From positions 71,257 to 135,245 of the forward strand of contig JALLOO010000002.1 of the NCBI GenBank assembly GCA_027717985.1: DNA of 63,989 bases. The letters run 5' to 3'. Every line of letters starts with the position of its first letter. Position 1 is the first letter of the stretch. Shown here in pieces: positions 5,683 to 10,100 of this stretch. The position numbers were made by a program, and so were the translations under genes. Under the pieces are notes generated by a model. That model made no database searches and was not told the DNA's origin. It was given only the letters and a program-made list of their open reading frames with translations. Origin of the DNA: Patescibacteria group bacterium AH-259-L05. GTDB lineage: Bacteria; Patescibacteriota; Patescibacteriia; UBA2591; UBA6264.

Positions 5683-5721
5683 ATTAATTGACAATTATGG
5701 ATGGTAATTGATAATAGTAGT

Positions 5722-6270
5722 ATGACCTACTTTTTTATATTAGGCAATAACCCTACTTTGTCAATAGCAGAGATTGTGTGCGTATTGTCTGCAAAAATAA
5801 AAAAACAAAATATAAAAATTCTTTCTCAAGATATATTTATTGTTGAGCTTAATAAAAAGATTGATACCAGTTTGCTCCAAAAGCAATTAGGAGGAACTAT
5901 TAAAATTGGGCAGATTATTAATAACTTCAGTATAGATGATATAAAGAAGGCAGAACAATCATTGGTTAAGCAGATTTTGTCGTTGTTCCCATTAAACAAA
6001 CCAAAAATCTTTTTTGGTTTTAGCATTTATGGGAGAAAAGTAAATATAAAACAGTTGGCTTTGGCAGTAAAGAAGAAATTAAAACAGCAGGGAATTGCTT
6101 CGCGATGGGTAGTATCAAAAGAAAGCGTTCTTTCGTCAGTGGTTGTGCAGAAAAATAAGTTATTAGAACAAGGAGCAGAATTTACATTATTTGTGAACTA
6201 CTCTATCCCTAAAGGGATAAAGCTTCCTGCTTCATCGTCGAGAGTAACCTCTCAACTCCACAAGCGTTGA
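5722..6270 (+). pseudogene. N-terminal part of TRM11-like tRNA methyltransferase, split by a mobile element
   Basis: MTYFFILGNNPTLSIAEI and the following THUMP-like region match the N-terminal half of TRM11/G10-type tRNA guanine-N2 methyltransferases as known in this group. The native sequence runs to about 6192 (GAEFTLF). Beyond that the frame reads into the end of the inserted TnpB element and stops at 6270. The remaining half, in good frame, is at about 8241-9035. Joining 6192 to 8241 restores an uninterrupted frame. An in-frame ATG at 5701 exists, but the family start fits 5722. The fragment lacks the SAM-binding domain and should be inactive alone. Confidence 0.8.
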
Positions 6271-6330
6271 TTCCTGTAGTCCCTACAGTATGTAAACTTA
6301 AGGCAAGAATGTTTCTAGCTGCGTTAACAT
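6193..6330 (-). ncRNA. Probable omegaRNA (TnpB guide RNA) region
   Basis: In known TnpB elements the guide RNA derives from the 3' end of tnpB and the right end of the element. This region has that position and the terminal hairpin. A guide read past the end would match the flanking methyltransferase sequence. The boundaries and existence are inferred from the family, not shown by the sequence. Confidence 0.4.
6204..6219 (-). other. Right-end palindrome of the TnpB element
   Basis: TATCCC-TAAA-GGGATA. The tnpB stop codon (6209-6211) lies inside it. The minus strand continues into TAGAGTAGTTCAC, an ending typical of TnpB elements. Confidence 0.65.
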
Positions 6331-7420
6331 CTCTATCTATGGTCAAAGCACATTCAGGACAGTGGTGAATTCTGACAGCTAAAGATTTAGGAACTGTTTT
6401 TTGACAATTGCTGCATATTTGAGATGTATTTTGGGGATTCACTCCTTGCGTCCACATACTAGCTTCTTCCGCTTTGTATGTAAGCATGTGCAGGAATTTG
6501 CCCCAGGCAGCATCAGATATTGATTTTGCTAAATATTTGTTTTTAACCAAACCTTTGATATTTAATTTTTCAAAGGCAATGAGCTGAAAGGCATTGACCA
6601 GCGATGTGCTTAGTTTGTGTAAAAAATCTACTCTTTGATTATTGATTCTTTCGTGTAATTGAGCCACTTTTAATCTTGATTTACTTCTGTTCTTGCTTTT
6701 AAGTTTTTTTCTTGAATGCTTTCTTTGGATTTGAGCTAATTTTTTTTCTGATGCTTTTAAATATCTCGGATTATGTATATTTTCCCCTTGAGACGTGGTT
6801 ACAAAACTGTTTAATCCTACATCAATTCCAATCATATTTTCATTTTTGATATTCTTGATTCGTGGTTTATCTGGTAATTTTTGATTAATCTCAACTGAAA
6901 AACACGCATACCATTTATTAGTTAAAGTTCTTCTAATAATTAAGGTTTTAATATTTCTTTTAATTGGTCGATGGAGTATAATTTTAAGAGAACCAATTTT
7001 GGAAAGATTAAGTTTGTTGGTCTTTACTTCAAATCCTGATTGTGGATATATCAAACTATCATATCTATTTTTTCCTTTAAATCGAGGATATCCTGGCTTT
7101 TTGTTTTTCCCTTTCTTGTTTTCTGCTACTCTTCTAAAAAAGTTTTGAAACGATTTGTCTAAACGTCTGGGTACATCTTGTAATACTTGAGAATATATTT
7201 GATTTAATTCCGGTTTTTGTTTTTTAAGCTCTGGTATTTGTTTAATTTGATCAAAGCATGTTATTTTTGTTTTATCCTTTTCATACGCATCTTTTTTTTG
7301 TTCTAGAAAATGATTGTACAGCCAGCAACAAGAACAAAGCCAGGATTCAAGTAAGGCTTGTTGAGCCTTAGTTGGATATAGTCTGAATTTGTAAGTTCGT
7401 TTTAGCATATTTTTATTCAT
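6209..7420 (-). CDS. tnpB: RNA-guided endonuclease TnpB
   Basis: A 403-residue TnpB of normal length. The RuvC acidic residues appear intact: Asp in IGIDVGLNSF (about 200), Glu in IAFEKLNIKGL (about 284) and Asp in IDRDVNAARNIL (about 362-364). A zinc ribbon is formed by CSNC (336-339) and CPEC (354-357). The N-terminus YKFRLYPTKAQ is typical. TnpB cuts DNA guided by an RNA from the element's right end and helps keep the element at the donor site. It is co-oriented with the LexA-like gene 12 bases upstream and probably cotranscribed. All residues look functional, so this is a recent insertion. Confidence 0.93.
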   Translation of the reverse strand: MNKNMLKRTYKFRLYPTKAQQALLESWLCSCCWLYNHFLEQKKDAYEKDKTKITCFDQIKQIPELKKQKPELNQIYSQVLQDVPRRLDKSFQNFFRRVAENKKGKNKKPGYPRFKGKNRYDSLIYPQSGFEVKTNKLNLSKIGSLKIILHRPIKRNIKTLIIRRTLTNKWYACFSVEINQKLPDKPRIKNIKNENMIGIDVGLNSFVTTSQGENIHNPRYLKASEKKLAQIQRKHSRKKLKSKNRSKSRLKVAQLHERINNQRVDFLHKLSTSLVNAFQLIAFEKLNIKGLVKNKYLAKSISDAAWGKFLHMLTYKAEEASMWTQGVNPQNTSQICSNCQKTVPKSLAVRIHHCPECALTIDRDVNAARNILALSLHTVGTTGINACGVERLLSTMKQEALSL

Positions 7421-7432
7421 TAATCAGTTTCC

Positions 7433-8038
7433 TTAGCTGGTAAAGTGAATAATATTTTTTACCTCTCCGACAATATGAAAATTTTCACTTTTCTTTACAA
7501 CTTCATGCGGATATTTCGGATTAAAAGATTCTAACACAATGTGTTTGCCCGCAAAGATAATCTTTTTGATTTTTGCCTCGTGGTTATGAATCACAATACC
7601 AAGCTGGCCTGATGTAACATCTCTTTGTTTAGTAGCTAAAACCAAATCATTTTCAAATATTCTCGGTTCCATTGAATCACCCATGGCTTTAACTAAAAAG
7701 ATTTGATCTGAAACACCAAACGCTTTAGTGGAAAGTGGTATTCGATCAATCACATTTTCTTGTACCAATAGTCCTCGGGGCCCGCACTGAGCCATGCCAT
7801 AACAATTAACATAGGTTAAGTCTTCTACCGGATCTTTAAGAACGATGTAGTCTTGCGGGTTGGCTGGATTTCGCCGAAGATACCCTTTTTTCTCAAGCTG
7901 CTCAATATGGTAAAAAGCTGTGTTAGGCGAGCTAACGCCTATTTCTTCAGCTATATCCCTCAGAGTCATACCCCTAACACCTTTTTTAAGTATATTGAGA
8001 ATTATTTTTTGTTTAGGGTGGAGTAATTCTTTAGTCAT
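7433..8038 (-). CDS. LexA-like self-cleaving repressor (S24 family) inside the TnpB element
   Basis: A 201-residue protein with an N-terminal winged helix (LRDIAEEIGVSSPNTAFYHI, residues 26-45, followed by LEKKGYL) and a C-terminal S24 peptidase domain. The catalytic Ser lies in GDSMEPRI (about 122) and the Lys in EAKIKKI (about 158). The probable cleavage bond is Cys-Gly in MAQCGPRG (85-86), where LexA usually has Ala-Gly. Such proteins repress SOS or element genes until RecA stimulates self-cleavage. It has its own promoter and lies between the two element ends, upstream of tnpB. It may be element cargo or a captured host gene. Confidence 0.85.
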   Translation of the reverse strand: MTKELLHPKQKIILNILKKGVRGMTLRDIAEEIGVSSPNTAFYHIEQLEKKGYLRRNPANPQDYIVLKDPVEDLTYVNCYGMAQCGPRGLLVQENVIDRIPLSTKAFGVSDQIFLVKAMGDSMEPRIFENDLVLATKQRDVTSGQLGIVIHNHEAKIKKIIFAGKHIVLESFNPKYPHEVVKKSENFHIVGEVKNIIHFTS

Positions 8039-8081
8039 ACATTTTGTTTTAATTTTTTAAAATATATTTGTTCTGTTCTAT

Positions 8082-8110
8082 ATTTTATAGGATAAGATAT
8101 AGTTTGTCAA
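8082..8110 (-). promoter_or_regulatory. Promoter of the LexA-like gene (and perhaps tnpB)
   Basis: Minus strand TTGACA, 17-base spacer, TAAAAT. The leader contains the direct repeat AGAACAGAACA, a possible site for autoregulation, though it is not a clear dyad. Confidence 0.6.
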
Positions 8111-8192
8111 TTAACGTTATCCACAGGTCTATTTTATAGGAGAGGGTAATTTAGAAATCATTAAAACTATGTTAGAGTATAACAAGAAAATG

Positions 8193-8234
8193 CGAGCTTT
8201 CATCTCGTCCCCTAAAGGGGGCAGGTTTTCTCGC
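8193..8234 (-). other. Left-end palindrome of the TnpB element
   Basis: Nested inverted repeat: outer GCGAG...CTCGC, inner CCCC-TAAA-GGGG. The inner core matches the hairpin at 6204-6219. Confidence 0.6.
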
Positions 8235-8548
8235 TCGCGATATATAGAAAAGGATAAAGTATTGCTTGGCAAAACACTCACATGCCAGGAATTTGAAAAA
8301 TATAGTTTTTATGATTTTTCTCGCCCGTATCGGGCAATTGAAAAAGGAATGATGCCGCCAAAGTTAGCAAAGATTATGATTAATTTAGCCGGTGCAGGAG
8401 AAGATTCAGCCCTTTTAGATCCGTTTTGCGGCTCAGGAACAATCCTACAGCAAGCATTGCTTATGGGGTATACAAAAGTGATAGGGACAGATATAGATCA
8501 GAGAGCAGTGGACAATTCTAAAAAAAATTTACAATGGTTAGCGCCCTC

Positions 8549-8633
8549 CTTGTCATCCCGCATCCCTTTGTCATCCCGCACGAATGTGCGGGATGACAAA
8601 GAAGGGACGTCATCCCGAGTACAACAAGGGGTC
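8549..8633. repeat. TGTCATCCCGC palindromic element inserted in frame
   Basis: Three copies of GTCATCCCG plus an inverted copy CGGGATGAC. It is read as LSSR...LSSR...VRDDKEGTSSR inside the methyltransferase between LAPS and VSLYRCDA, where the family has no such segment. Confidence 0.75.
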
Positions 8634-9031
8634 TCATTATATAGATGTGATGCCCAAGAGTTGAGCAAGAAAATACCACAACATTCTATTGATGCAATTA
8701 TTACTGAGCCATATCTTGGCCCGCTTAAAATTGGAAATTTAAAAGCAGAAATTAAAATTTTATCAGATTTATATATTAATGCTTTTAAATCGTTTAAAAA
8801 AGTTTTAAAATCAGATGGACGAGTGGTTATTATTTTTCCCGTATTCAGTATAAAAAATAAATTACATTTTTTACCAATTTTAGATACGCTCAAAAAAATC
8901 GGTTGGCAAATACGAATGTCATTACCTCAATATTTATTAGATAATCCAGTTATTAAAACTACGAGTCGCCAGTCCATTATATATTCTCGACCAAATCAAA
9001 AGATTTTACGCGAAATTTTAATTTTTATATT

Positions 9032-9559
9032 ATGAAAATAGGAATCGATGCTCGATTTTATGGGCCTCATGGCAAAGGTATTGGGCGTTATACACAAAAG
9101 TTACTTGCCAGTTTAGAAAAATTTGACCATAACAATGAGTATTATGTATTCTTGCGTCAAGAAAATTTTGATTTATATAAACCGCAAAATCCTAAATTTC
9201 ATAAGGTGTTAGCTGATTATCCATGGTATTCATTTAAGGAGCAAGTAGTATTTCCGTTTAAATTGTATATGTATGGTCTTAATTTAGTACATTTTTTTCA
9301 CTTTAATGTTCCGTTTTTATATAAAAAAAAGTTTGTGGTAACAATTCATGATCTCATACATCATAAAGCATCACGGGAGGCATCAACACTATCTTTTATA
9401 TTGTTTTATGGTAAAAGGTTATTATATTTTTTAGTAATACGACGTGCAATTAAAAAATCACAAAAAGTTATAACGGTTTCTTCGCATACAAAGATTGAGA
9501 TTATCAGAGAATACAAAGTTAAACCGGAAAAAGTTATTGTAACATATGAAGCAGCTTAA
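9032..9559 (+). CDS. Glycosyltransferase GT4, N-terminal half (broken gene)
   Basis: MKIGIDARFYGPHGKGIGRYT is the start of a GT4/GT-B glycosyltransferase acceptor domain, which continues through TIHDLIHH to VITVSSHTKIEII and ends at VIVTYEAA then stop. The second half lies in a different frame starting at 9546. Intact relatives have about 15-25 residues between TYEAA and LKEPYLLYVGN that are absent here, so a small deletion with frameshift has happened. It could be a pseudogene or two coupled polypeptides. ATGA overlap with the upstream methyltransferase fragment. Confidence 0.75.
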   Translation: MKIGIDARFYGPHGKGIGRYTQKLLASLEKFDHNNEYYVFLRQENFDLYKPQNPKFHKVLADYPWYSFKEQVVFPFKLYMYGLNLVHFFHFNVPFLYKKKFVVTIHDLIHHKASREASTLSFILFYGKRLLYFLVIRRAIKKSQKVITVSSHTKIEIIREYKVKPEKVIVTYEAA

Positions 9560-10100
9560 AGAACCATATTTATTGTATGTGGGCAATGCATATCCACATA
9601 AGAATTTAGAGCGGCTTATTTCCGCGTTTAAAATTGTATTACAAAAACAACCTGAGTTATATCTTGTATTAGTTGGGAAAATCGATTATTTTTACGAGCG
9701 CTTGCAAGATTTTGTAAAAGAATTGGGTTTAGAAAAAAATGTTATATTTACTGGATATGTTTCAGATTCTGAACTTTCATGGCTATATACGCATGGGCTT
9801 GCCTATGTATTTCCGTCATTATCAGAAGGATTTGGTTTACCCGGATTAGAAGCAATGACACATAGCTTACCAGTAATTTCATCAAATAAAGAGCCGTTGC
9901 CAGAAATATATGGTGAAGCTGCCTTATATTTTAATCCAGAAGATATTAATGAGATGGCGCATGCTATTTTACAAATAGTTCAAAGTAAGGAAGTAAGAGA
10001 AAAATTAAAAAAAGTTGGAAGAGTCAAAGTTAAAAAATATTCATGGGATCGTTGCGCGAAGCAAACTCTCGAAGTATACAAAAGCGTTTTGAAAATATAA
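9546..10100 (+). CDS. Glycosyltransferase GT4, C-terminal half (broken gene)
   Basis: The nucleotide-sugar-binding domain of a GT4 enzyme: PYLLYVGNAYPHKN, NVIFTGYVSDSEL, and the E-x7-E motif in SEGFGLPGLEAM. It overlaps the N-terminal half by 14 bases in another frame. The ATG at 9546 has no Shine-Dalgarno site, so translation would rely on coupling to the upstream frame. Together the two halves would make a full-size enzyme for cell-surface glycan synthesis that lacks part of the interdomain linker. Confidence 0.75.
   Translation: MKQLKEPYLLYVGNAYPHKNLERLISAFKIVLQKQPELYLVLVGKIDYFYERLQDFVKELGLEKNVIFTGYVSDSELSWLYTHGLAYVFPSLSEGFGLPGLEAMTHSLPVISSNKEPLPEIYGEAALYFNPEDINEMAHAILQIVQSKEVREKLKKVGRVKVKKYSWDRCAKQTLEVYKSVLKI

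Follow-up and report, generated by a model that had tools for sequence, protein, structure and literature searches.

In the stretch of Patescibacteria group bacterium AH-259-L05 analysed here (contig JALLOO010000002.1, 63,989 nucleotides; hereafter the window, whose numbering is used throughout) a tnpB gene follows a LexA-like repressor gene in what is probably a single operon. Both are carried by a non-autonomous insertion element of the IS200/IS605 type, on one strand with 12 bases between them, enclosed by the left end (LE) and right end (RE) of the element (Table 1). An initial annotation of the window had described a TnpB insertion sequence with a LexA-like gene as cargo in an operon-like arrangement. 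This is borne out by a second full unit at another site, by purifying selection and by intact catalytic and cleavage residues.

The second LE-lexA-tnpB-RE unit is on contig C62 of the same genome (G000, assembled as 1.03 Mb in 63 contigs and 77.5% complete), beside a dtd-like gene. It has 81% DNA identity to the window element over 2.06 kb, with TnpB 77% and LexA 89–90% identical. Other copies are partly assembled. A tnpB gene and RE are found at the start of C61 beside rpsK, and an LE with the lexA-type promoter leader at the end of C7 beside rpsD; they would fit a single copy inserted between rpsK and rpsD, of which the middle is unassembled. An LE with the lexA-promoter leader is also present at the edge of C33. 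The second full copy and the two partly assembled copies place lexA within the mobile unit, and chance adjacency of lexA and tnpB in the window is ruled out by the second full copy. Between the window and C62, the ratio of nonsynonymous to synonymous substitution rates (dN/dS) is 0.135 for lexA (dS 0.51) and 0.188 for tnpB (dS 0.72). Such low ratios at this divergence indicate that both genes were kept functional by purifying selection over a long period.

Insertion site and element ends

In 22 of the order's 26 genomes the interrupted methyltransferase gene has an orthologue, almost always as a single open frame. In the uninterrupted orthologue L060 of the genus-mate G023 (86% nucleotide identity) the empty site reads ...ACATTATTT|ATAAAAAAGG, and the window reads ...ACATTATTT up to 6192, then the element, then ATAGAAAAGG from 8244. 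Joining the halves at 8244 restores a single reading frame with no indel relative to L060 (...EFTLF|IEKDK... in the joined window gene, ...EFTLF|IKKDK... in L060), which confirms the proposed insertion into a TRM11-like gene. The left end had been correctly placed at 6193, as the RE end ...GAGTAGTTCAC| is identical in seven copies in this genome, while the right end given as 8240 is 3 bp short of that set by the empty site. An empty site with neither gene rules out the reading in which LexA is a host gene and tnpB alone is mobile. Two findings had been named that would speak against the arrangement, a relative with the LexA-like gene at this place lacking tnpB and an end of the element between 7420 and 7433. 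Neither was seen, with L060 holding neither gene and the empty-site ends falling at 6193 and 8243.

The matching hairpins noticed earlier at the two ends of the element are present and have CCCTAAAGGG cores. Subterminal hairpins, a short fixed sequence on the 5' side of the insertion and the lack of a target duplication are as in IS200/IS605 elements and are evident from the empty site and from the alignment of eight LE copies. The putative target-adjacent motif (TAM) is TTTAT-like, the minus-strand bases before LE being TTCTAT in the window, TTTTAT in C62, CTTAT in C7, TTTAT in G023 C46 and TTTTAT in G012. The Y1 transposase TnpA of an autonomous IS200/IS605 element was not found inside the element.

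Table 1. Positions of the element, its genes and control sequences, and the interrupted gene
Feature	Position	Strand	Remarks
Interrupted TRM11/UPF0020-like methyltransferase gene, 5' half	5701..6192	+	
Expected guide	6177..6192	-	First 16 nt beyond RE, AAATAATGTAAATTCT; matches the element's own empty site; length inferred by analogy with ISDra2
Complete insertion element	6193..8243	-	2051 bp; LE right and RE left in window coordinates; from empty-site alignment with L060 and the RE end of seven own-genome copies
RE and 3' part of omegaRNA	6193..6290	-	Three helices, ends GAGTAGTTCAC; 10-sequence alignment A1
tnpB	6209..7420	-	403 aa; Met5 (about 7408) is the probable conserved start
S24/LexA-like repressor gene (type A)	7433..8038	-	201 aa; winged helix-turn-helix (HTH) and S24; Cys85-Gly86 cleavage site, Ser122/Lys158 dyad
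Putative promoter of lexA-tnpB operon	8075..8110	-	TTGACA-17-TAAAAT
Imperfect dyad over -10	8075-8093	-	ATCCTATA-AAA-TATAGAAC; perfect in C62 and C29
DnaA-box 9-mer	8117..8125	+	TTATCCACA; just upstream of -35
LE	8176..8243	-	Subterminal hairpin CCCCTTTAGGGG, conserved GATGAAAGCTCGCA; LE alignment of eight copies
Flanking target/TAM	8244..8248	-	TCTAT here; TTTAT-like in other copies
Interrupted methyltransferase gene, 3' half	8244..9035	+	

TnpB and its omegaRNA

The TnpB protein matches the profiles PF01385, PF07282, PF12323 and NF040570 (E=5e-94 for the last). Residues D200, E284 and D364 are invariant in an alignment of seven TnpBs, and we take these to have the RuvC catalytic roles by homology to ISDra2. 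With these residues and a C-terminal zinc ribbon the protein is of the kind found in tnpB-only IS200/IS605 elements, and it is not a TldR, in which the RuvC catalytic residues are lost. The omegaRNA overlaps RE and has a conserved structure, as in IS200/IS605 elements: of 28 consensus pairs in a 10-sequence alignment, 11 have pair-keeping changes on both sides. No Rfam family reached its threshold, a RAGATH-18 match inside the omegaRNA scoring 24.4 bits against the 44.9 needed.

Short LE-to-RE units lacking tnpB and retaining the omegaRNA are found at L029 (G000:C29, about 462-665) and L031 (G000:C61, about 2580-2955), each with a TTGACA/TTGACT promoter-like sequence. These may produce guide-only RNAs that work in trans with TnpB. 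At L076 1393-2812 (G000:C3) a TnpB of another clade adjoins a truncated, divergent TnpA, and the RE end there resembles that of the present element.

The LexA-like repressor and its promoter

The product of the first gene matches PF00717 (E=7e-22) and PF01726 (E=1e-9), both above cut-off, and LexA structures (E=2e-8). Its TIGR00498 score of 88.6 bits is under the LexA equivalog cut-off of 110.95, so that it is not classed with the SOS master repressor. The Cys/Ala-Gly cleavage site and the Ser and Lys of the dyad, as in LexA and other S24 proteins, are conserved in 15 of the 15 S24 proteins compared, and a RecA gene is present in the genome. No close relatives of the repressor were found in viral contigs. 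A phage or plasmid source was considered and rejected, there being no phage match and only distant plasmid LexA matches (<60%).

The promoters of the window, C62 and C29 genes share the block TCCTATAAAATATAG, though they are otherwise diverged. Perfect 8-base dyads are present in C62 (ATCC...GGAT) and C29 (GTCC...GGAC), between which the outer pair differs on both sides (A-T in C62, G-C in C29). Conservation of TCCTATAAAATATAG in diverged promoters is a better argument for a candidate operator than symmetry. Type B genes, described below, have promoter dyads of their own, CCTGACTTTTCAGTCAGG and CCCGACTAAATAGTCGGG.

The 9-mer TTATCCACA is just upstream of the -35 in the promoters of the window, C62, C7, C33, C29, C16, C26, C13, C56, G005, G020, G023:C94 and G049, and was seen three times in the window against 0.58 expected. 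Almost all the S24/LexA-type genes compared in the order (L002, L005, L037, L048, L054, L051, L052, L042, besides the window) have it at this place, in one orientation or the other.

LexA-type genes at other tnpB loci

The tnpB gene is rare, being found in 3 of 26 genomes in the order and, in a wider sample of 379 from the phylum, in 2. The initial annotation had proposed a search of relatives for S24/LexA genes 5' of tnpB, and other LexA lineages were indeed found beside related tnpB genes. On C16, the start of tnpB comes 2–3 bases after the end of another LexA gene (type B, about 27% identical to type A), with an N6 methylase after RE; LE was not found at this tnpB. At G023:C141, the gene preceding tnpB encodes yet another LexA (type C, 31%), and the contig ends just upstream of it. 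The branching order of the six close copies is not settled by the TnpB tree, therefore the LexA types could either have been gained independently or swapped. No S24-TnpB link was seen at the two TnpB loci of one phylum relative.

The lexA gene could have become cargo without any role for TnpB: a tnpB unit would have inserted next to a lexA-type operon, after which a TnpA made use of an LE located upstream of lexA. The remnant of an LE from this element family is found at L054 about 1275-1340 (G000:C13:6290-6330), upstream of the probable host lexA by 150–200 bp and in the same orientation. This may be a capture intermediate, and it marks a possible route to lexA capture. S24 genes are also abundant, with seven matches in this genome, and on C16 a tnpB appears to have come between a LexA-B gene and a restriction-modification (R-M) methylase. 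Set against these, lexA and tnpB have been kept together at two sites through a dS of 0.5–0.7 with a dN/dS of 0.14, other LexA lineages adjoin related tnpB genes, and S24 genes were within 3 kb at 0 of 80 viral TnpB loci, using a profile hidden Markov model that recovers all the known ones. Such a passenger origin is considered unlikely.

Proposed regulation of the tnpB operon

Autorepression is the likeliest role of the repressor, and a RecA-driven release is plausible given the conserved cleavage site. The explanation preferred here, with chances that are about even, is that an autoregulated LexA-like repressor controls the tnpB operon, is released through RecA on DNA damage, and so allows cutting of empty sites when recombination is available. 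The repressor would bind its own promoter at about 8075-8110, holding lexA-tnpB and the omegaRNA (from the tnpB transcript) low. RecA filaments on single-stranded DNA, formed on DNA damage or fork collapse, would then cause self-cleavage at Cys85-Gly86 and release of the operon. TnpB would cut empty donor sites, recognised by the TTTAT-like TAM and the guide, while homologous recombination can copy the element back. The common DnaA-box sequence upstream of the promoter suggests that there may be a further input linked to replication. Transposition of ISDra2 is stimulated by irradiation, through TnpA and with TnpB not needed (PMC2806898), and is a precedent for damage-stimulated IS200/IS605 transposition.

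More broadly, the TnpB elements of one Patescibacteria lineage may have acquired LexA-type repressors of different kinds (A, B, C) on several occasions, limiting cutting to the RecA-filament state and hence to recombinational copying, with gating by DNA damage and replication state. This is a tentative suggestion, and doubtful in its full extent.

Several observations weigh against the preferred explanation. Shuffled promoters give such a dyad in 4–8% of cases, so that in AT-rich DNA it lacks significance by itself, and the right arm of the window dyad is imperfect. The promoter region of the probable host lexA (C13) visibly differs from that of the element, which favours a private repressor over one that belongs to the host SOS regulon. 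Three related tnpB copies (G023:C46, G012:C9 and L034) are without LexA and have LE-like sequence directly before tnpB. The LexA-B of C16 may be the host's own R-M regulator, joined by a tnpB lacking LE. A full TnpA was not found in the 77.5% of the genome that is represented, which holds only a fragment of 61 aa on C3 and, on C56, a RAYT-like frame of 245 aa.

The last of these would fit domestication, with the repressor and TnpB serving the host in regulation or defence rather than in transposition, as would C16, where a copy lacking a detectable LE is fused to the preceding LexA-B and followed by an R-M methylase. The intact ends of the window copy, its clean empty site in a genus-mate and the LE/RE copies at several sites make this very improbable.

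Association of S24 repressors with restriction-modification genes

In the class, genes related to the three LexA types are located 5' of those for Eco57I-, D12- and N4/N6-type methylases or HsdR-N proteins; fusions to methylases also occur. Going by gene order, TnpB stands here where R-M genes stand elsewhere. The description of an insertion sequence with LexA cargo thus holds as regards the cargo, but gives a partial picture, in that S24 repressors are common 5' partners of R-M genes in this lineage.

The LexA-like protein might accordingly autoregulate the tnpB operon in a manner unrelated to DNA damage, limiting the level of the nuclease after entry into a new cell or site, like an R-M controller protein or a phage-type repressor. 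Genes of the same S24 type being 5' of R-M methylase or nuclease genes in many genomes of the class, and an operator block unlike that of the probable host lexA, are consistent with this. The cleavage site and Ser/Lys dyad are fully conserved, which would be needless in a repressor that is not cleaved, and control independent of damage is judged to be rather unlikely.

On C29 (L005 572-2132) there is a tnpB-free type-A gene (64% amino acid identity), and the BRO-N gene after it matches the padloc defence candidate PDC-S13 (E=3.5e-121). At L051 490-2118, L049, L045 and L044 a LexA-like domain is in a single frame with a DNA methyltransferase (Pfam-confirmed for L051 only). Such an S24-methylase fusion is possibly a self-regulating R-M gene.

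Relationship to known systems

The element resembles the tnpB-only (IS1341-like) IS200/IS605 elements and ISDra2 in the RuvC residues of TnpB, the subterminal hairpins of LE and RE, an omegaRNA ending at RE, and in inserting 3' to a short TAM with no duplication of the target. It differs from them in having a LexA-like gene before tnpB, no tnpA, and a TTTAT-like rather than TTGAT TAM. The repressor shares with LexA, UmuD and phage CI an S24 domain, Cys-Gly cleavage site and Ser-Lys dyad, together with a winged HTH, but it is below the LexA equivalog cut-off, lies within an insertion sequence and has a private promoter block. As with R-M controller proteins, a small regulator is directly 5' of genes for DNA cutting or methylation, the S24 genes here being 5' of or fused to methylases; the downstream gene in the present case encodes an RNA-guided nuclease. 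R-M controller proteins are, to our knowledge, not S24 proteases. The nuclease-dead, TnpB-derived TldR repressors also tie a TnpB lineage to gene regulation, whereas the present TnpB retains its catalytic residues and the regulator is a separate LexA-like protein. No described TnpB-LexA operon was found among the titles, abstracts and term counts covered by a limited literature search, which is weak evidence of absence.

How a self-spreading TnpB nuclease is restrained from killing its host is an open question. An element-borne, self-cleaving repressor, if this is indeed its role, would be a testable answer, with the cut tied to a state in which recombination repairs it and re-copies the element. 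It would also make this a natural damage-inducible RNA-guided nuclease cassette, and would link TnpB with the R-M genes of Patescibacteria that rely on this class of repressor.

Other features of the window

REP-like palindromic repeats (TCATCCCGCA...TGCGGGATGA) are present at 8550-8625, in the 3' half of the methyltransferase gene, where they are read through in frame and are absent from the aligned relatives. At 9032-10100 a glycosyltransferase-like gene seems to be split into the overlapping frames 9032-9559 and 9546-10100, possibly by a frameshift.
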